The notes beneath the pieces were generated by a model. That model was not told where the DNA came from, made no database searches, and saw nothing but the letters and a program-made list of their open reading frames with translations. DNA of 22,668 bases from a virus: positions 1 through 22,668 of IMG/VR virus record IMGVR_UViG_3300034152_000228; one strand, given 5' to 3'. Shown here piece by piece: positions 2,445-22,668 of this stretch. The translations under genes were made by a program, and so were the position numbers. Every line of letters begins with the position of its first letter. Position 1 is the first letter of the stretch.

Positions 2445-5400
2445 TGACCAGTTCTCCTTGCGTTGTAAGTTGAGCGTCTCGTCTCACGTTTGAACTGCTT
2501 CATGATTTCGCGAGCAGTTTCGCGAGCATTAGTGGTTTCCGAGACACTAATGCTTATAGGTCCAACGTTCGTGACTTCCCCACCCTGATCGCGGAATACT
2601 GGTCTGATGCCAGCGTTCATCGCTTGAATCTGAGGGAAGAAATCACGAGTCGCGGCAGCAGTATTGACAGACTCACCGGCTGAAAGCATAGCTGGAAGTC
2701 TATCGGTACCCGCTGGCATTCCGCCTTCCTGTAAATAGGCCAGACCGCCCATGCGACGCATTAAGCCGCCAAAAGCCCTGTTCTGTGCGGCTCCAGCCTG
2801 ACTTTGAAGGTCAATTTGCCGTTGTAGACTGGCATTGGTGTCTTCGACTGCGCCTTTAAGAGCCGCCTGCCCGGAAGCAGCAACTCGTCCAGCATTCTGA
2901 CCAGCAGTACCAGCGTCTTGAGCCTTAGTAGACTGCTGTCCAAATGCCTCGCCAACGGCTTTGATTCTATCCTCAAGCGGAGTCAGTGTCTCAGCCACAA
3001 CTTGGAGACCAGCCGCCTTCTCGGCCTCGGTAACAATGGTCCCAAGCGCGCTACTTGCTTCCCGAATCTGTTTTGCAAGATCAGGGAATCCGCGCATTTC
3101 TGCTTCATTGGCAAGATCACGCAACGATCGCGTGGCCTCCGCGGCAGCAGATGCGTCAAAAGTTTCGGCTGAAAGTGCTTTCTCCGCGACTTGTTGAAAC
3201 TGAATAAATCGGGTGACAATACCTTTGAGTACAGGATCAAGTGCTTGAAATTCTGTTTCTTTGAAGATTCCTGCGTTAAAGGCAAGTGTTCGACCAGTGT
3301 TGGCTACTTGAGAGGCTAATGCCGTCCAAAATTGTGGTGAGAACCATCCTGCTTTTGGATCTGCTCGGGCAAACGTTTGTCGTCCGATCTGGATAGCCGT
3401 ATCAACAACGTCAACGGCCGCTGTGCGCGCATCTGTTAGGGCATTTGTCCAATCCTTCGTTGCAATAATTATATCTTGCGTGGCTGTTTTGGCGCGTTCG
3501 AGATCCCTCTCAATTTCCGGCAGTGCCTCTTGTGCATCTTCGAAGCCCCGTGCACCGATCTCGACACCAGTCAATTTCTCAAAAGCAAGTTTCTGACTAT
3601 CGGGAATTGCATCAGCTTGTGCATTGAGTTTGTTCAGAATTCGTTGAAGGTTAATGTCAACAACGTCAGTGAGATCAATCTCAATCCCTGTAATCGGATC
3701 ACGGAAAGCCTCCCGGAATTTCTGTCGAAGCGCACCGACATCCGGGTCGTATGCTTCAAGAATTCGAGCATTCTTGCCAGCAGCCTCAAGTTCTGCATCG
3801 AGCTGCTTTGTTAGTTTGCCGACCTGATCTCGAATCGTGTCGAGGTCAATATCTGGTTTGACCTCACCCTTCTCAACAATGTCGGTAAGTTCTTTGATTT
3901 TCTGCTGCAATACTTCAATTCGTGTTCTTCGCGCTTCCTCTTGTGCTCTGATTTTATCCGCAATTTGGACTTGTTCTTGTTCCTTCTCGATCTGTTCTTC
4001 GATAATTCGTTGTTGTTGTGCAAGTGCGCGTTGTACTTGTTGTGTGGCTCGGAAAATGGAGGCGCGATTCTTAGACGTATCTGCGGTGCTAAGAGCTTCT
4101 TTCGCAACGGATTCAGCCTGCTTGCGCAACTCTTCCGCACGCTTGGCGTCACCACGTTGCAACGCCGCAGCGGACTGTCCAAGCAGACTCTGTGATCGTT
4201 CAATCTGCTTGAAGATTTTCTGTTGGTCGTTCAAACCTCTGAGGCTACGATCAAAATTGAATTTCTCAATAGCAAATTGTGCTCCGAGCAATTGCTGCTG
4301 CAAATCTCTGATATTATCCGCAGCGTCGGCCGACACGTCACGAATGCCTTGAACGAAAGATTCGTAGGCACCAAGACGATCATCAACCTGATCCGCAATG
4401 CTACCGAAAACTGCGTCTTGCAGTTCTTCAGCGAAACGAGCATCTTGCAGCCACAGTTTCTGTCGTTCCTGCAAGAATCTCTGCGTACTGGAAAGAATCT
4501 CTTGCTGAGAACCTTCAGCTGCCTTCTGGCGGAGCCGTTCCTCAGTCAAAGCGATCTTAGAGAGTTCCTCTTGTTCCTTCTTAACCTCCTCAGCCGCTCG
4601 CTTCGCAGCGTTACGAATGTTGTTGATTGATACCACGATCGCAGCGACAGCCGCACCGATAGCCAAAGCCGCACCCAACGGTGTCGCCAGGAATGACATA
4701 AGAGCAATGCGCGCCTTAACAACGGACGCTAACAAGCCCTTGAAAGACAAGGACACAAGCGTATTTCTAGTGATGATGCCGATTGAGAAGTTGAGGTACG
4801 CGGCCCCAGCAACCACGATAGCACTCGTGAGAGCTTGGATCGTCTCAGGACCACCACCGAAAGCGTTAAAGAATGCATTGAGCGTACGGATAGCCCCTTG
4901 ACCAAACGAAGAAACAAAGACGTTTCGAATCCTTGTAATTTCCTGCTCGAAACGTTTGGCGTCTGTCTCGAAAATGGTATCGAACGCTTCTTGTAAGTCA
5001 ACTTCACCAGCTGCTTGCAACTCTTTCAAGTTACTAACCATCTTCTCGGTAGCATTACCAGCCAAACCAAGAACACCGCGAACTGCTCGAACTCGGTTGA
5101 ATAATTCACCGATTTCAGAAGCAGAATCTCCGGCACGATCCGTCAATTGCTCCAGAAAACCAGAGAAACCGAATGCTTGGATACCAGCTTCAGCGCTAGC
5201 CACACCCATTTCATTGAAGGTTTCCTGTAGCGCCTCGGTGGGTCGGATCAATTTCAAATTGATATTGTTGATAAGCGTGAACGCTTCATTGTATTTCAAA
5301 CCTTGAACGGTCAAGGTTGCAACAGCAGCGTTCACTTCATCGAACGAAACACCCAGCTGTGACGAGAGAACAAGAACACGTCCATACGTATTAGCGAACT

Positions 5401-14296: not shown

Positions 14297-16100
14297 TCTT
14301 TCGTCTCCTCTTGTCACGACCCCTCACCCGCCGCTTGCCGTCGGGATCATTCTCAGGGTCTTGTGATTGTTGCTTTTCTAGTTTTGCCCCCTCTGGGTCA
14401 ACCTCCAAACCGCGAGCACCAGGATTATCGGTCTCACCGAAACCCTTACTCTGTGCTTTCATTCTCATGAGTTCAGCATCCTCTTTCTCCTTCTTGGCCT
14501 TCTCGGCTTCACCTTTGGGCCAATTACGAGCTAGGGACGCCGTTTCTCTTGAGACGAGTCCGATTTCCGCGTCCGATCGGATTTGCTCCGGATCGGCGGT
14601 AGGATATCGTGAATCGTTGATTTCGGCAATAATTTTGTCAAACTCCTCGTCAGAGACCTTTCCTCCAAGCAGGATGCTGGCGATTTCTTTTTGAATGGCC
14701 TTCCTGAATGTAGGAGAAGCAACATCGGAAGAGCTATTAGAAAGTTGTTCAGCATCTTTCCGCCTATCCTCGTCTGAACGAAGAGAATAGCGCTCAGGAT
14801 ACCGCACAGTCAATGGTTTCCTCGAATCCTCATAATCAGACCATAACTCACCAACACGTCTTTCGCCATGCTCAAGCACCAAACCAATGGCCGAGAGGCC
14901 CGATTCCAAACCACGTTCATCCATTTGTTTTGATTCGGCTGACGCGAATCGTGATCGCGTGTTCGCAACAGCCAAGTTAACGAGTGTACGGATATCATCC
15001 TTGAGGGCTTTCTGCTTCTCCATCGAAATCTGAAGTGGTTCAGATGACGGGTGGATGAAGCCAGGACGATCAACACCAATCGGGTAACGCCGACCATCCG
15101 TCGAACCAACCTTGATGGTCTTCGGATTGTCGGGTCGTTGCTCCTGGTCCGAATTGTCCTCGTCATACTCGTGGACATTGTAATAATCTTCGTTGCTCAT
15201 ATTCTGAGCAGCTTCAAACTTCTGGTCAAATTGCTCCGTGTAGAACGGAACGTTCGATCGCAGCGCATATGCCACGTCGGCCGATTCCATGTTCGTTATG
15301 GCAATTTGATGATTCGCAATGTCCTGTAGGAGTGACGACTGTAGCTCAAGAATAACGAATGGGATCTCATTGAGTTCAAGCTCAACCGGCTCAGGATTGC
15401 TCGGATCGCCATAAATGTCCGTTTGCGACCCTTCGGCGTTGTACGTCTGGCACCAAACAATGCCTTCGCTGTCAATGTAGTAGTGCCGGTACTGTTCAGC
15501 GTAATCGGCGTACATACCGTAGTATGTCTCTTTGATTTCGCTTCTTACCCGGAGCAAAACTTGCGCGAGCCGAAGTTCAGACCCTCTGAGGAAATACTCC
15601 CAGTTTCGGATGTCTTCCGCAACAAACGTATACAGATACGGATGTTGCTCCTGCTTGTCTCGTAGTGTACGTTTCTCGTTGATACGATGATTATCGACGT
15701 AAACGCCAACCTTACCCATCGCTAGAAGCTCGGGCAAGACCTTGGTGCCGATGAAGTGGTTCATTGTCGATCCTTCAAGATCGACACCGCCGAGCTTGCC
15801 TTGGTTCGTTGCTCTGTGCCAGCTTTCTGTCCCACCCGTGCGTTTGATCGCACCCATACGTTGAAAAATCGAGTTTTTCACATCCATGACCGCCGCTTTG
15901 GCAAAACCGCCGATGGGCGTGATCCGTTTTCTGCGGTTAAAATCAGGAGTCCCTTCGGCATCGCAGAATTGCTCCACATACTGCTCGATGAAGTCTTCGC
16001 CGCCCTTCATCACGTACCGGAATTTATCCCATTCCGCAGAGCGTTCCAAATACTCTGGGTGAACGGAATTCTGGATGCTGAACTTTTTCTTGTCGGCCAT
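14286..16100 (-). CDS. Portal protein
   Basis: This 604-residue protein is located between the large terminase and the head genes. The N-terminus has HPEYLERSAEWDKFRYVMKG, then IEQYVEQF and ITPIGGFAKAAVMDVKNSIF. A central GTKVLPELLAMGKVGVYVDN segment is typical of portal proteins related to the DUF4055 group. The middle region is acidic with a DEDNSDQEQ loop. Helices near 440-540 match a portal stem-to-crown layout. The C-terminal 60 residues are highly charged and end in KRRVRGRDKRRRKNGG, possibly for DNA contact. The start overlaps the terminase stop by one base (TAATG). The portal role is well supported by size and place; the exact family is less sure. Confidence 0.85.
   Translation of the reverse strand: MADKKKFSIQNSVHPEYLERSAEWDKFRYVMKGGEDFIEQYVEQFCDAEGTPDFNRRKRITPIGGFAKAAVMDVKNSIFQRMGAIKRTGGTESWHRATNQGKLGGVDLEGSTMNHFIGTKVLPELLAMGKVGVYVDNHRINEKRTLRDKQEQHPYLYTFVAEDIRNWEYFLRGSELRLAQVLLRVRSEIKETYYGMYADYAEQYRHYYIDSEGIVWCQTYNAEGSQTDIYGDPSNPEPVELELNEIPFVILELQSSLLQDIANHQIAITNMESADVAYALRSNVPFYTEQFDQKFEAAQNMSNEDYYNVHEYDEDNSDQEQRPDNPKTIKVGSTDGRRYPIGVDRPGFIHPSSEPLQISMEKQKALKDDIRTLVNLAVANTRSRFASAESKQMDERGLESGLSAIGLVLEHGERRVGELWSDYEDSRKPLTVRYPERYSLRSDEDRRKDAEQLSNSSSDVASPTFRKAIQKEIASILLGGKVSDEEFDKIIAEINDSRYPTADPEQIRSDAEIGLVSRETASLARNWPKGEAEKAKKEKEDAELMRMKAQSKGFGETDNPGARGLEVDPEGAKLEKQQSQDPENDPDGKRRVRGRDKRRRKNGG
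14304..14310 (-). promoter_or_regulatory. Ribosome binding site deciding the 14296 start
   Basis: GAGGAGA on the minus strand lies seven bases before ATG 14296, inside the portal coding end. Confidence 0.65.
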
Positions 16101-17737
16101 TACAGGAAACTCCGAATATTCTGGTTTGTTGCAACAGTCGCGGCCAGTGGTAGAGCCATCTCGCTATAGTTTCTCGCATGTGCGTAGTGGTCTGGACCAC
16201 GCTTTATATACTTCGACACGTCATCGCCACTCGCATCTTCTTCATATTTCTTCACGAGATTTTTCAGGTGTGTTCGATACTCTCCTGGCAGATCAATCGG
16301 CAATTTCAATCGCTTTGAACGGACGCGACCGAGGCTCGTATCAAGCCAAAATGTCCGATTAACACTGATGAGATGTTCATCATCCGCACCGGCTACAACC
16401 ATCTTCTTACTGCCGATTCCCCGAGCGTAATGGCAACGTTTTACTCGGCCCCAGAATCGACAACAAAATTCGTAAACGGCTCGTTCTTCTGGTTGCTTGT
16501 CTAAGACCGCAAAGAAGACTTGATATTCTCGCATGATTATTGCAAGTTCTTCAAATCTTTGAACCTTTCCGACCTTGATGATTTCGCCTTCAGCCAACAT
16601 ATTGAGGTCTGGTCCCATCTTGGGAATACGCCAGCCAGTTACCTCATAATGTAGCCATTTTCCGACGTCGCAACCCATCGTTGTGATTTTGTAGTTGGGT
16701 GGCTTATCATCCATCCGACGTTTGACATAGCAATCGTCAAAATGATGATCCTCAATCTGGGCTCCTGCCACCACATGCGGCATTCCGACCAGTGAATTCC
16801 AAAGTTCCTGCTCAGCCGACGGATTTGTCTCAGCCTCAATCACCGTGGCTGCAAACTTGTCGGGTGTCTTCACACAGCTTGAAAGCTGATTGATATAGAA
16901 TCCACGCCTCTCCAGCCCTTCGAACTTTGGAATCCAGTGACCTGTCTCAACCTGGCTTTTGATTTTATCCTCATGCTCGATCTTTTTCTTGCAAAGAGGG
17001 CAGCATATATGCGACTCTTTGATTCTAGGATCAAGCAAACTCTCCCCGATGAGCACGAAGCATTCGGGATAAGTCAGTGTAATATCTTTCCAACAAACCG
17101 GACAAGTGAAGTACCATGATTCCTGCGTCGTTTGCAGGTACATCTGGTGAACACCCGTCTCCGGGATAATTGGTGTCGAAATGCACCAAATCTGTGAGAC
17201 TAACTGACCATCTGTACGTCTAAAAGCAAGCTGGATCTTCTCCTGATCCATTTCATCAACTTCGTCAAGTACGACGAAGCCAGGATCGATACCTTTCAAA
17301 CCGCTACGGCTTCTCGATCCTCTGATCCAAAGACTTGCTGCTCCTGCTCGTTTGTGTCCGACGTTCTTAACGTCTGAGAACATCCGACGCAGATGTTCAC
17401 TTTCGTCTAATGCGGCATCAAATCGATCAGCACTGAAGTTTGAGGCGTCTGGTGTTTGATTCGGAAAAACATAAAGTACCGAGGCTTGCTCAATGTCCAT
17501 CTTGAAGAATGAACGATTGAGCATAGTCTCAGTATACGCCATCTGTGCGGCCTTCATGCCGACATTGAATGGCGCGGACGAATCATGCATCGCTCTGGAC
17601 CAGGGATGCAGGTCGAATCCGAATGGTTGTCCCTTACGTACGCGGTATGATTGTGCCCATCGCGAGCACGTTTTCACACTTTTTCGTTTTAGACCCGATG
17701 CGAAGACTTCTGCAAATACCTGCTCCAGAGCGTGCAT
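16100..17737 (-). CDS. terL: Terminase large subunit, GpA-like
   Basis: This 545-residue protein is the ATP-driven DNA packaging motor with nuclease. Residues about 59-70 (VGMKAAQMAYTE) are a variant Walker A in the position of the GpA-family motif and lack a classical GK[ST]. VVLDEVDEMD at 155-164 is Walker B, and ISTP near 186 is the coupling motif. A zinc-ribbon-like set CPVC (212-215) and CCPLC (245-249) lies between ATPase and nuclease, as in lambda gpA relatives. The nuclease part has GCDVGK (Asp 357), VLDKQPEE (Asp 413) and a C-terminal PDHYAHARNYSEMAL. GGAGG lies seven bases upstream of the ATG. No small terminase subunit is recognisable next to it. Confidence 0.92.
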   Translation of the reverse strand: MHALEQVFAEVFASGLKRKSVKTCSRWAQSYRVRKGQPFGFDLHPWSRAMHDSSAPFNVGMKAAQMAYTETMLNRSFFKMDIEQASVLYVFPNQTPDASNFSADRFDAALDESEHLRRMFSDVKNVGHKRAGAASLWIRGSRSRSGLKGIDPGFVVLDEVDEMDQEKIQLAFRRTDGQLVSQIWCISTPIIPETGVHQMYLQTTQESWYFTCPVCWKDITLTYPECFVLIGESLLDPRIKESHICCPLCKKKIEHEDKIKSQVETGHWIPKFEGLERRGFYINQLSSCVKTPDKFAATVIEAETNPSAEQELWNSLVGMPHVVAGAQIEDHHFDDCYVKRRMDDKPPNYKITTMGCDVGKWLHYEVTGWRIPKMGPDLNMLAEGEIIKVGKVQRFEELAIIMREYQVFFAVLDKQPEERAVYEFCCRFWGRVKRCHYARGIGSKKMVVAGADDEHLISVNRTFWLDTSLGRVRSKRLKLPIDLPGEYRTHLKNLVKKYEEDASGDDVSKYIKRGPDHYAHARNYSEMALPLAATVATNQNIRSFL

Positions 17738-17749
17738 GATAACGCCTCC

Positions 17750-18019
17750 TTACCCCTGTCGTAATTCCGAAAGCGTCGGCGGACGCTTCGGTTTCTCTTC
17801 CTCCTTCGGTACTGGTTCACCATCAACAATGTCCGTCTGGATGGGGACTCGCGGATCGTGCGGCTCAATCGTCACCTGCTCGGCAGGATAGTCTTGGCCA
17901 AGGTGAAGGTAAATTTGTCCGTGCCGAGCATTGTGGCAATCGAAGACCTTATTGCCCTCGACATAGACATCACAAAGGCCCTCAAATGCTTCGAACTCAA
18001 ACTTTCGCTTTCGTGCCAT
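17750..18019 (-). CDS. Small unknown protein upstream of terminase
   Basis: This 89-residue protein begins MARKRKFEFEAFEG. It has a short beta-rich N-terminal part with CDVYVEGNKVFDCHNARHGQ, including two Cys and two His that could bind metal, and YLHLGQDYPAEQVTIEPHDP. The Pro/Glu/Lys-rich tail (EPVPKEEEKPKRPPTLSEL) is probably disordered. GAGG precedes the ATG. I recognise no family. It stands where a small terminase might be, but is short and has no helix-turn-helix, so I do not call it that. Confidence 0.65.
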   Translation of the reverse strand: MARKRKFEFEAFEGLCDVYVEGNKVFDCHNARHGQIYLHLGQDYPAEQVTIEPHDPRVPIQTDIVDGEPVPKEEEKPKRPPTLSELRQG

Positions 18020-18026
18020 GATACCC

Positions 18027-18410
18027 TCAAAGCAATAGGAGGAGTAGAGGAACGAGTTTCAATAACAAGGCAAGAATCTCGTCCCAGTTTTCGATGATCC
18101 AGTTGTAGATGCTCTCCCACCAGGAAAGCTCTACGTCCAACTCGTCCATGACGTGATCGGCGACCGTCGCAACTCGACCGTTGTACGCAACCTTCTTGTC
18201 GAAACCAGCGACAAGCGTGTCGTACTGGGCAGCCGTGATCTCGCCCTCTTTCCGCTTTCTCCGAGCTTCGGCTCGCTTCTCGCGAATGACTCGCTTGAGA
18301 GCTTTTCGAAATCGCAATCTATAGAAAGGTCCACGGTAAACAGCGGCCGCAGCCGGTGTAGCCGCAAGGCCGCAAGCCATGATGGTCGTGATGAATGTGC
18401 GTCGTTTCAT
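18027..18410 (-). CDS. Small exported protein with Tat-like/lipoprotein-like leader and hydrophobic C-terminus
   Basis: This 127-residue protein begins with MKRRTFITTIMACGLAATPA, a twin-arginine start with a hydrophobic core and Ala-rich cleavage region. IMAC at 10-13 is also a possible short lipobox. Residues about 30-60 are very basic and helical, 65-95 are mixed, and the last ~30 residues (WWESIYNWIIENWDEI, then a run of Leu with one Lys) are amphipathic to hydrophobic. An N-terminal lipid or signal anchor plus a C-terminal membrane segment is the topology of unimolecular spanins, a possible but unproven role. Alternatives are a holin-like or other membrane-active protein. Its ATG overlaps the thioredoxin-like gene stop (ATGA). 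Confidence 0.7.
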   Translation of the reverse strand: MKRRTFITTIMACGLAATPAAAAVYRGPFYRLRFRKALKRVIREKRAEARRKRKEGEITAAQYDTLVAGFDKKVAYNGRVATVADHVMDELDVELSWWESIYNWIIENWDEILALLLKLVPLLLLLL

Positions 18411-18835
18411 TCTTTCTTACAATCCTCCGCTTTCTTTGCGATCCGACGCCAGTTGATCACACCTTTGAATCGGTGTTTGATTTCACCCTCAACGAATGTC
18501 GCAGTGTAGGGTATTCCTTCTGTGACTCCGTTGTCGCGGAAGTAGGCGTACAGATCTGGGTGTTTGTCTACATCATAGACTTTCAGTCGGTATCCCTTCC
18601 TCTTGAGCGCCGACCAATTAACCTTCTGCGCCGGGCACCAAATACACCAGTCCGCGGCGAATCCGACGATGGTGTTCTTTTCCCAGAGTTCTGCGTATTC
18701 TTCGAGTCCTTCCGGCGGCACAACTTTCTGTCCAGAAAGTTCACGCAAAAGCGTATTTTGCTCTTCAACTTGGAGATATTGCCCTCCTTGAAGGCAAGCC
18801 AAGCAGATCGCAATGCAAGCCAAAATCTTAGCCAC
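18407..18835 (-). CDS. Exported thioredoxin-fold protein with WCxxC
   Basis: This 142-residue protein has a short hydrophobic leader (MAKILACIAICLACLQG), then a thioredoxin fold. VGFAADWCIWCPAQK puts the redox pair at Cys64/Cys67. KVYDVDKHPDLYAYF is the central strand-helix, GIPYTATF holds the cis-Pro at 109, and EIKHRFKGV is the final strand. The protein is complete and keeps both active cysteines, so thiol-disulfide activity is plausible. The leader suggests it works outside the cytoplasm. The start is GTG 18835 with AGGAG seven bases upstream; an overlapping ATG one frame away is a shadow. It lies directly between the papain-like and small membrane genes. Phage thioredoxins are known, but exported ones in a late region are unusual. 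Confidence 0.85.
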   Translation of the reverse strand: MAKILACIAICLACLQGGQYLQVEEQNTLLRELSGQKVVPPEGLEEYAELWEKNTIVGFAADWCIWCPAQKVNWSALKRKGYRLKVYDVDKHPDLYAYFRDNGVTEGIPYTATFVEGEIKHRFKGVINWRRIAKKAEDCKKE

Positions 18836-18847
18836 ATCATAGCTCCT

Positions 18848-19846
18848 TCAATAGAGTTTGTGCGAGAGCATGCGTTGAGGATGGCCTACATATGCCGACA
18901 TCGCATAGCAGTCTTCCCAATCCTTCAACATCAATTCAAGGTATTCGGCATCGACCCAAAACGATCCTGGCGGTTGACCGTAAGTTGTTGGGCCGTCGTT
19001 CCACGCTCCATGTGAGTTCAAAATCAATCCGCCTGGGCGGCTGTCGTCTTTGAACCCTGCCAGCAACAGAGCGTGCCACCACTGTTTACGGAACCAGCGA
19101 CCACGCCAACGATTTCCGTTCCATGTGCTCAGATAAGGCTTGCAAAATCCGTCCTTATCCCGAGTATCATGGAAAGCGTATGTTGAGCATAAAATCACTG
19201 GCTGCCCAACAAAGACTGAATCGAAAGCGTCTCGTACGGTCAGGATTTTGGAGTAAGTCTTGACCGGATGTTGCTTAGCTTTCGGCTCCAGCCAGTCAGG
19301 TACGCCCAAATCCCGCATCTTGTATGAGCGAACGACATCGTAACCACGTAAATCGAGATAATTGTCACCAGAAGCGTAGATTTGACGGTGCAGAGTGCCG
19401 TATTGACTCAAAAACTTGACGGCCCACTCGCCGTGGCTGCCTGCTCGTCCCTCAAGGTCGCCTCCGCCGATTTCATTTCGGCTTCCAGTGTAGATCATCT
19501 CGACGCTGGATTTAGCCTTCCATGTTTCGGGCTCAAAACGCATGAACAAGTCACAAGCGGCCAGGATATCGACGCCCAAACCAGCTGCATGTCCAACGCA
19601 ATCGCCCTCTCCACCTTGTTTGTGAGGTTTGAGTGGTGCTCCAAGGATAATTTCGAGATATTTCCAGAGAAATGCCTTTTGACCTTTGCTAATTCCTTTG
19701 AAATGTCCAAATGCTCGTCTAAAAGGGATGCGCCTCGACTTGAAAGCCGGTTTGAGTGCCCCAAAGAACTTATTCTCTTCCTCAGCCCTTGCCGGGGTAG
19801 CAAAAGCTAAGGCCGATAGCAGCCCTAAGAAGCCTCGACGGTTCAT
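18848..19846 (-). CDS. Papain-like (C1-type) cysteine peptidase with Tat-like signal
   Basis: This 332-residue protein starts MNRRGFLGLLSALAF with RR-x-F-L and an A-x-A cleavage site near 20 (TPARAEE), a classic Tat-like leader. Papain landmarks occur in order: Gln77 six residues before Cys83 (KQGGEGDCVGHAAG), EWAVKFLSQYGTLHRQIYA resembling the papain substrate-side helix-strand, WWHALLLAGF with His258, and LILNSHGAWND with Asn277. The Gln-Cys spacing equals that of papain. No clear prodomain is seen beyond about 50 residues after the leader. The start overlaps the upstream stop (ATGA). The likely substrate lies in the host envelope. The family is inferred from motifs and needs a profile search. 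Confidence 0.75.
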   Translation of the reverse strand: MNRRGFLGLLSALAFATPARAEEENKFFGALKPAFKSRRIPFRRAFGHFKGISKGQKAFLWKYLEIILGAPLKPHKQGGEGDCVGHAAGLGVDILAACDLFMRFEPETWKAKSSVEMIYTGSRNEIGGGDLEGRAGSHGEWAVKFLSQYGTLHRQIYASGDNYLDLRGYDVVRSYKMRDLGVPDWLEPKAKQHPVKTYSKILTVRDAFDSVFVGQPVILCSTYAFHDTRDKDGFCKPYLSTWNGNRWRGRWFRKQWWHALLLAGFKDDSRPGGLILNSHGAWNDGPTTYGQPPGSFWVDAEYLELMLKDWEDCYAMSAYVGHPQRMLSHKLY

Positions 19847-20463
19847 TTTATTGCCTTCTCGATGGCATCGGCGATTGCTCGATACGTGGCTGGGTAATCC
19901 GTGATCTCAGCAGCATCTAAATATGCACCAAGGCTGTCTAAAAACGGTTTCCACGCCTCAAGCGAGTCACCAAGCGTCTGATTGGTCGCCCTTGCGGTGG
20001 CTTCGAGCATCTTGTCTGGTGCAATTTCGGCATTTGCAAGGGCTCGAAAGGTGCTTGCTAACTGGAGGGCCTCCTGTTTACCATTTTCTGACCGGACCTG
20101 ACCAAGCCAGGATTTGATTTTAGAATCAAGACCGGTCGGCGTAGCACCTTCGATGACAACCTCGTGCTTCTTGAGTACCGGTTTGCCATTCGCAACGCCC
20201 GCGATCAGAACAAGGTAGCGTCCAGGCGTTCGAGAAGACAGAAAAGCACGCTTGCCGACGGCCTCAAAGTCTGATGTCTCAGGATCGATGTCCCAAACTA
20301 ACTCCTCAGACTTGCTTTTGGTCGCGTCTAGCCTGATCAGTTCACCAATTGAGCCCGTTTCAGGGGCTTCCAACACGATATCAGCAACGGCTGGGGTCGG
20401 TGCGTCTGCTGCATACGCCGGAAAGGCCACAAGTAGCAGCATCGCGAGAAAAATAGATCGCAT
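19843..20463 (-). CDS. Secreted PKD/Ig-like protein with helical C-terminal domain
   Basis: This 206-residue protein has a Sec signal peptide (MRSIFLAMLLLVAFPAYA, cleavage near 19). Residues about 24-107 look like a PKD/Ig-like beta sandwich: GELIRLDATKSKSEELVWD, then FLSSRTPGRYLVLIAGVANG and KKHEVVIEG. Residues about 112-206 are helical (IKSWLGQVRSENGKQEAL, LEATARATNQTLG, LDAAEITDYPATYRAIAD). A binding or envelope role is likely, with no catalytic motif. I associate this layout with secreted proteins of planctomycete-like bacteria, a recollection and not a search result. AAGG lies four bases before the ATG. It is coupled to the cysteine peptidase gene. Confidence 0.75.
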   Translation of the reverse strand: MRSIFLAMLLLVAFPAYAADAPTPAVADIVLEAPETGSIGELIRLDATKSKSEELVWDIDPETSDFEAVGKRAFLSSRTPGRYLVLIAGVANGKPVLKKHEVVIEGATPTGLDSKIKSWLGQVRSENGKQEALQLASTFRALANAEIAPDKMLEATARATNQTLGDSLEAWKPFLDSLGAYLDAAEITDYPATYRAIADAIEKAIK

Positions 20464-20464
20464 G

Positions 20465-21316
20465 TTACCTTCCTCTTCGAGGGAGCATTTTCATCCTTCG
20501 CCGCTTTTGGCGACGAAACTGGCCAACGTGCACGACTGGTGTAGGTGGTGCGGCATCACTTAGGACTTCGACAGCTTGTCTCGTGACCCGCATGTCACCT
20601 TCTAATGCTACCGAAAGGACTTCACCCGCCTGTCTTGAAACTCTAGCAGCGCCTTCAACTGAAGGACCAAATAAAACTTGAACGCTTTGTCTCGAAATAC
20701 GTGCAGTGCCAAGAGATGGATGTTTGTGAAGATATTCGATTGCTTGTCTTGTGACTCGAAGCTCACCGCCTGTGACTTTGAAAAGATATTGAACACCTTG
20801 CCTCGTGATTCTTATTTCACCTGCAACGGGCTCATGGATGTACTCAACAGCCTGACGTGAAACTCTGAGATTACCTCCTATTGCTTCTGCTAAAATCTCA
20901 AGGCTTTGTCTTGAAATTCGAAGGACGCCATTGGTTGTCGCGGAGATGACCTCAACGCCTTGTCTGCTCAGTCTTAGTTGGCCCTCTTCTGCAATGCCAG
21001 CAAGAACTTGAACAACTTGACGAGTGATTCTAAGATCACCACCGGCCGCATCAAAAAGGTACTCCGCTGCTTGTCTCGTGATTCGAAGCTCACCCGCAAG
21101 CGGGTCTTTTGCGATGACTTCGACTTGCTGCCTTGAAGCTCTTAGGTGGCCTGTTCCGCCTGCTGCCGACTCGACAACTTGCTGTGTCGCTCTGAGTTCA
21201 CCCTCAACAGCGCCTTCGGCTGTCAGAATCTCGACTTGCTGTCGAGTTCCCCTGAGTTTGCCCTCACTACCAAGTGCGACGGCCTCAACGATTTGTTGCG
21301 TACCGCGGAGTGCCAT
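20465..21316 (-). CDS. Tandem-repeat protein of fourteen LRxxRQxVEVL units
   Basis: In this 283-residue protein, residues 1-252 are about fourteen copies of a 17-20 residue unit. The core is [LMI]R[IVLGA][TS][RQ]Q-x-[VA][EQ][VYI][LI] followed by a variable turn rich in Gly. The end is Pro-rich, then strongly basic (FRRQKRRRMKMLPRRGR). Such regular short repeats suggest a beta-solenoid or fibre-like array. Similar VTQ-type repeats occur in other phage proteins, but I know no function for them. Early units have the divergent GTQQ form. There is no strong RBS, so coupling to the upstream RWRDDG gene is likely. It could be a virion fibre, a decoration or a DNA-binding protein through its basic tail. 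Confidence 0.85.
   Translation of the reverse strand: MALRGTQQIVEAVALGSEGKLRGTRQQVEILTAEGAVEGELRATQQVVESAAGGTGHLRASRQQVEVIAKDPLAGELRITRQAAEYLFDAAGGDLRITRQVVQVLAGIAEEGQLRLSRQGVEVISATTNGVLRISRQSLEILAEAIGGNLRVSRQAVEYIHEPVAGEIRITRQGVQYLFKVTGGELRVTRQAIEYLHKHPSLGTARISRQSVQVLFGPSVEGAARVSRQAGEVLSVALEGDMRVTRQAVEVLSDAAPPTPVVHVGQFRRQKRRRMKMLPRRGR
20561..21316 (-). repeat. Coding tandem repeats (fourteen degenerate units of 51-60 bases)
   Basis: The repeats can be followed at DNA level by recurring CTTGTCT(C/T)GTGA-like segments on the plus strand, roughly every 54-60 bases. Units differ in loop length by whole codons, keeping frame. Confidence 0.8.
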
Positions 21317-22577: not shown

Positions 22578-22668
22578 TTAGCGTTCGGGCAGCGCCTTCT
22601 TGGTCTTGAAGCGCAATACGATGTTCACGAGAGCCACGATGCCGGCCAACAGCGCGCTGTACTGACTG
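22578..22668 (-). CDS. C-terminus of a small membrane protein (holin-like?), cut by window edge
   Basis: The last 29 residues are visible: a hydrophobic stretch (YSALLAGIVALVNIVL) followed by a basic tail (RFKTKKALPER). A C-terminal transmembrane helix with a Lys/Arg-rich cytoplasmic end is typical of small phage membrane proteins, including some holins. The N-terminus lies outside the window, so the call is open. Confidence 0.6.
   Translation of the reverse strand, partial: SQYSALLAGIVALVNIVLRFKTKKALPER

Follow-up and report, generated by a model that had tools for sequence, protein, structure and literature searches.

Described lysis of walled bacteria by dsDNA phages centres on a peptidoglycan hydrolase. 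In T7, the lysis genes sit beside the terminase genes, a region comprising the holin (17.5), TerS (18), Rz/Rz1 and TerL (19). The CHAP and NlpC/P60 endolysins belong to the papain-like fold class. Xylellain from Xylella fastidiosa (PDB 3ois) is a cellular, bacterial papain-type protease, for which we know of no thioredoxin or PKD partner. Papain folds annotated as C1-type peptidases also occur in tailed-phage sequences from uncultured Caudovirales (BFVD A0A6J5LAR6, A0A6J5TCZ4 and others). Finally, the viruses of methanogens encode PeiW and PeiP, pseudomurein endoisopeptidases with a Cys-His-Asp triad, which cut pseudomurein isopeptide bonds (PMC4592898).

We analyzed a stretch of viral DNA (the window) that corresponds to the whole of the IMG/VR record IMGVR_UViG_3300034152_000228, 22,668 bases in length. 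Four coupled genes run along its minus strand from 20463 to 18027, upstream of the terminase large subunit gene, and all four reading frames were found where the first-pass annotation had placed them. The features of this region are:

22578..22668, minus strand: C-terminal end of a 2-TM holin-like gene (weak resemblance only), cut by the window end and whole in G001 at 4173-4376
20465..21316, minus strand: repeat protein with LRITRQ-type repeats, outside the conserved block
19843..20463, minus strand: PKD-domain protein of 206 aa, Sec-type leader, PKD fold and a helical half
18848..19846, minus strand: papain-fold cysteine peptidase of 332 aa, Tat-like leader MNRRGFLG, with Cys83, His258 and Asn277, and Gln77 before the Cys
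18407..18835, minus strand: thioredoxin, exported or membrane-anchored, 142 aa, GTG start, W-C64-I-W-C67
18027..18410, minus strand: small protein of 127 aa, C-terminal hydrophobic tail kept in relatives
17750..18019, minus strand: 89-aa gene between the block and TerL
16100..17737, minus strand: terminase large subunit TerL (GpA type), the anchor for collecting relatives

The layout is like that of T7, in that a small membrane protein and envelope-acting genes lie between a TerS-like gene and TerL. It differs in that no lysozyme or amidase was found here, and the envelope enzyme would be an exported protease accompanied by a thioredoxin. As with PeiW and PeiP, which lyse cells and profit from reductant, the enzyme is a virus-coded cysteine enzyme, a likeness that is one of description; the accessible part of that source describes no thioredoxin partner for them (PMC4592898). 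Neither CHAP nor NlpC/P60 scores above cut-off in these genomes, and the fold neighbors of the window papain are instead C1 papains. Xylellain is its best solved fold match, at 17% identity, while the Caudovirales C1-type peptidases, identified by their BFVD names, are about 15% identical.

Gene organization and predicted folds

The PKD gene stop overlaps the papain ATG by 4 nt, a 12-nt gap separates the papain gene from the GTG of the thioredoxin gene, and the thioredoxin stop again overlaps the ATG of the fourth gene by 4 nt. Purine runs resembling Shine-Dalgarno sequences precede the coupled genes. The 127-aa gene is followed on the minus strand by the 89-aa gene, TerL and the portal gene; in L062, a similar-looking 108-aa gene occupies the place of the 89-aa gene. 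(L-numbers denote collected loci and G-numbers records; L014 and L016, for example, are parts of G001.) G001, a 60,442-base contig with 99.8% identity across the window, extends beyond the right end of the window and carries there, at 3595-4376, a TerS-like gene and the small holin-like gene, only the last 91 bases of which are inside the window. The N-terminus of the LRITRQ repeat protein, which is probably virion-related, is similar to another G001 open reading frame (28433-29683), and its Pfam matches are spurious. G001 also contains a truncated sulfatase reading frame (L014:1968-2603), with a ParB-like gene on one side and the TerS-like gene on the other, which is a moron, a remnant or an assembly artefact.

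Scanned as single sequences against Pfam and PHROG, the four proteins returned almost nothing, and family profiles and structure models were required to classify them. The papain-type fold proposed on first reading was upheld by the structure model (pLDDT 77, pTM 0.79) and by Foldseek, which ranked xylellain (E 1.5e-9) and cathepsins at the top of 197 PDB matches at E<=1e-3. The triad Cys83-His258-Asn277 is complete; these residues are kept in the alignment of relatives, in which the triad is invariant wherever it is complete. The succession of Cys, His and Asn, with Gln77 ahead of the Cys, is that of C1-type peptidases. The window protein gave no match to PF00112 in Pfam, and its relative in L028 scored 13.8 bits against a cut-off of 20.7. 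Since the PF00112 score is below the curated cut-off, we assign the peptidase to a papain-fold subfamily of its own rather than to the Pfam C1 family, with proteolysis as the activity predicted from sequence and model.

The Tat-like leader (MNRRGFLG) noted earlier is indeed present in the window copy. Twin arginines are found in 25 papains of the PKD-papain type, L077 alone of this type having a Sec-like leader. These 25 combine a twin-Arg n-region with a moderately hydrophobic h-region, which predicts their export via Tat; a strict RR-x-hydrophobic start is rare, occurring in only 20 of the 904 open reading frames of at least 200 aa in the collected loci. Papains that have no leader belong to other clades (L072/L076, L091, L118 and L128) and to the unrelated phage group G012. 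In two lineages, inteins are located exactly at the papain active site, within the catalytic NSWG block in L036 (2432-4303) and directly at the catalytic GDC in L139 (7120-8619) and apparently also in L138 (437-1909). Inteins favor conserved active sites.

The PKD protein also has the properties first ascribed to it, namely a Sec-type leader and, in the structure model (pLDDT 89), a PKD fold. Its N-terminal half resembles the PKD domains of collagenase G (ColG; 2y72, TMt 0.72), with Foldseek E-values of 2.8e-4 to 4.5e-4 and TMt of 0.68-0.72 across these domains, and its second half is helical in the model. By sequence, no match was obtained in Pfam, and the PKD profile found nothing among solved structures; the fold search alone gave a match.

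For the WCxxC protein, the family profile matched PDI and thioredoxins (E 2.4e-19), corroborating the assigned thioredoxin fold. The window protein alone is under the Pfam cut-off (E 0.0018), and its relatives in L024, L075 and L102 are above it. C64 and C67 of the WCxxC motif and P109, a proline that precedes the last strand pair, are invariant. A candidate lipobox in the window thioredoxin was rejected on inspection by eye. A number of relatives encode, in addition, a DUF1360-like small membrane protein that contains a CPxC motif (CPICLGFW; L018:7961-8218, L025:4303-4593, L036:4829-5095, L043:4650-4910, L068:2523-2819 and others), the start of which often overlaps the thioredoxin stop (the papain stop in L068). 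This protein, which is absent from the phage of the window, could be a redox relay.

The fourth protein had been described as having both a leader and a C-terminal hydrophobic segment. The hydrophobic tail is kept in relatives, together with a basic N-terminus and nothing else; the leader is not conserved, a Tat-like leader being present in this phage only. In many relatives, the gene lies up to ~3 kb from the thioredoxin gene. The holin-like gene is conserved, encodes 62-76 aa with two apparent TM segments and follows the TerS-like gene in G001, L021, L022, L023, L025, L036, L041, L043, L063, L068, L070 and L139. Its family match to a PHROG holin is very weak (E 0.1).

Conservation of the block and exchange of the protease

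Relatives were collected by searches from the papain, the PKD protein and TerL. The PKD-papain-thioredoxin order upstream of TerL recurs in more than 20 distinct, divergent viral contigs, which confirmed the co-occurrence that the first-pass annotation had asked about. The full order kept in these contigs is TerS-like, 2-TM holin-like, PKD, papain, thioredoxin, further genes, hydrophobic-tail protein, TerL and portal. With this order repeated across more than 20 contigs whose papains are mostly 34-44% identical to that of the window, the arrangement is far beyond chance. In an 80-locus sample gathered through TerL alone, the block turned up in TerL clades distinct from one another. Virion genes sit inside the block in many relatives.

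We then read TerL relatives that have no papain for the content of the same interval. Exported trypsin-like proteases occupy the papain slot in L082 and L109 (Trypsin_2, E 6.5e-9 and 5.9e-10), a matrixin in L101 (E 3.3e-13), and a C92 permuted papain in L093 (E 2.7e-13). L102 encodes an exported C39-like protein, assigned by motif with no Pfam match, together with an exported thioredoxin (E 4.7e-14). In L070 (1568-2473), a single lipoprotein consists of a trypsin-like protease (Trypsin_2, E 3e-16; H69, D103 and S177 by motif) fused to a thioredoxin segment (WCNVC; Thioredoxin E 0.005, family profile 1e-8), and its gene stands upstream of TerL, with the holin-like gene on one side and one for a CPYC membrane protein on the other. 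The TerL tree pairs L082 with the papain-bearing L091/L092 and L101 with L069 (PKD and a divergent papain) as sisters, and nests L070 within a clade that carries the cassette. What stays constant in the slot, as predicted from these sequences, is a protease for export, frequently accompanied by a thioredoxin. In L078, L088, L099 and L100, the interval contains neither a papain nor another obvious protease.

The exchange of papain for trypsin-like proteases and matrixin, along with the protease-thioredoxin fusion, favors the earlier suggestion of combined cutting and reduction. A serine-type protease as fusion partner makes substrate disulfides the likelier target of the thioredoxin and weakens the notion that it only reactivates a cysteine protease.

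Other proteins were observed in these phages. Exported cysteine-rich proteins of the CECQNCDCKDCKC type lie in the interval upstream of TerL in L072 (1446-2243), L076 (1961-2647) and L075 (1858-2439), and phospholipase-A2-like proteins with an HDxxY-type motif and a weak Pfam match (E 0.02) lie in this interval in L073 (1056-1403) and L096 (6219-6638). Away from the block of cassette-bearing phages, we observed two more putative exported proteases, a HELTH protein with a leader and no Pfam match (L052:14072-14728, G013) and a trypsin-like protease (L045:15097-15936, G010). G001 has a second, leaderless cysteine-protease-like reading frame far from the block (L016:12997-13608, G001 50997-51608; RWSCSVAAAAM ... 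WWHVVAW), also with no Pfam match. The 63-kb record G012 (L056-L059), which is complete, has a 2.1-kb terminal repeat and represents another phage group, encodes a leaderless papain relative (L059:962-1885) after a membrane-protein gene.

Candidate function of the block

We searched 30 records for eight common peptidoglycan-hydrolase or -binding families (CHAP, M15_3, PG_binding_1, SLT, NlpC/P60, phage lysozyme, M23 and Amidase_2) and found none above the curated Pfam cut-offs, with two matches below threshold (SLT in G033 and NlpC/P60 in G024). Trypsin_2 was above cut-off in 6 of the 30 records. In six long records, including G012, a Pfam scan of all genes recognized no peptidoglycan hydrolase. 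As far as these searches were run, the expectation that no standard endolysin would be present therefore held for the 60-kb sister contig, the other long records and the complete G012. The phages have no endolysin detectable by sequence, in records that are mostly linear, may be fragments and could harbor a divergent endolysin that such searches miss.

Taken together, we read the block as a module for exported proteolysis and disulfide reduction with which the phage would breach the envelope of its host, most likely for lysis, and assign this reading a probability of roughly one half. Lysis is suggested by the position of the block, the absence of further recognizable lysis enzymes and the exchange pattern. 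The original interpretation is supported in part: the folds, the co-occurrence and the lack of a detectable endolysin speak for it, and the protease exchange and the protease-thioredoxin fusion strengthen it. A conserved leader on the small protein and the planctomycete host are not supported, and lysis is deduced from the whole. We also infer that the substrate is envelope protein and that the PKD, holin-like and hydrophobic-tail proteins have the following roles. The papain-type protease would exit by Tat already folded, with its catalytic thiol protected, and the Sec-exported PKD protein would tether or position it on an envelope component. The thioredoxin, exported by Sec, would reduce disulfides in envelope proteins, opening them to proteolysis, and might in addition maintain the protease thiol in its active state. 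Both the small tail-anchored protein and the 2-TM holin-like protein would act at the inner membrane, controlling access.

If this is true, proteolysis and disulfide reduction can open a cell, which would point to hosts with protein-dependent envelope strength and provide a source of enzymes for opening such cells. It raises the testable question of which agent lyses the host cell when a phage has no recognizable endolysin. More tentatively, a whole tailed-phage lineage might be devoid of peptidoglycan hydrolases and release its progeny by exported proteolysis and disulfide reduction directed against a disulfide-stabilized protein envelope, with an interchangeable protease class (papain, C39-like, trypsin-like or matrixin) and thioredoxin as the recurrent partner.

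Remodeling of the envelope or surface, rather than lysis, is an unlikely but credible alternative, in which the proteases trim surface proteins to prevent superinfection, eliminate receptors, release progeny from an S-layer or biofilm, or counter host defenses. Accessory genes, too, typically encode exported enzymes that are variable and exchangeable, lipoprotein or anchored forms exist, and some TerL relatives do not have such enzymes; the position fixed between the TerS/holin-like genes and TerL, the retention of the block across clades and the failure to recognize another lysis enzyme argue instead for lysis. That the papain is an unconventional endolysin, cutting peptidoglycan peptides in the manner of CHAP, NlpC/P60 or PeiW/PeiP with the thioredoxin only keeping its thiol reduced, we regard as improbable. 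Many wall peptidases have papain-like folds, and one papain-fold protein in BFVD is named 'Peptidoglycan binding-like'. PeiW and PeiP, cysteine wall enzymes of viral origin, are most active in the presence of reducing agents (PMC4592898). Against this, the enzyme is nearest in fold to xylellain and cathepsins, which are true papains, exchange for trypsin-like proteases or matrixin fits a protein substrate better than peptidoglycan, and a serine protease fused to thioredoxin needs no thiol reactivation. Packaging of the PKD protein, papain and thioredoxin in the particle, opening the envelope from outside, is very improbable, since Tat and Sec leaders would take them out of the cytoplasm where virions assemble, even though genes for the tail or capsid surface lie beside or within the block, the L018 thioredoxin frame continues into a virion-like reading frame and the papains of some clades are leaderless.

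Host links and precedent

The first-pass annotation had pointed to planctomycetes, with envelopes described as rich in protein and disulfides. That planctomycetes lack peptidoglycan is not supported, as their peptidoglycan sacculi are lysozyme-sensitive (PMC4432640). The host assignment itself is a guess that our searches neither support nor exclude. The papain, TerL, capsid and sulfatase gave no host link: no papain relatives were present in 50,697 phage records, TerL and the capsid protein had matches only in distant phages with a mix of hosts, and the G001 sulfatase piece matched plasmids of mixed taxa. A literature search, which covered subscription journals in part and so does not prove novelty, returned no described precedent for the block. 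A pattern-limited scan of genome contigs identified a single papain copy, which is truncated and belongs to Flexithrix dorotheae (L034:382-798). This copy, the only cellular relative found, lies near a contig end beside an apparent transposase end.
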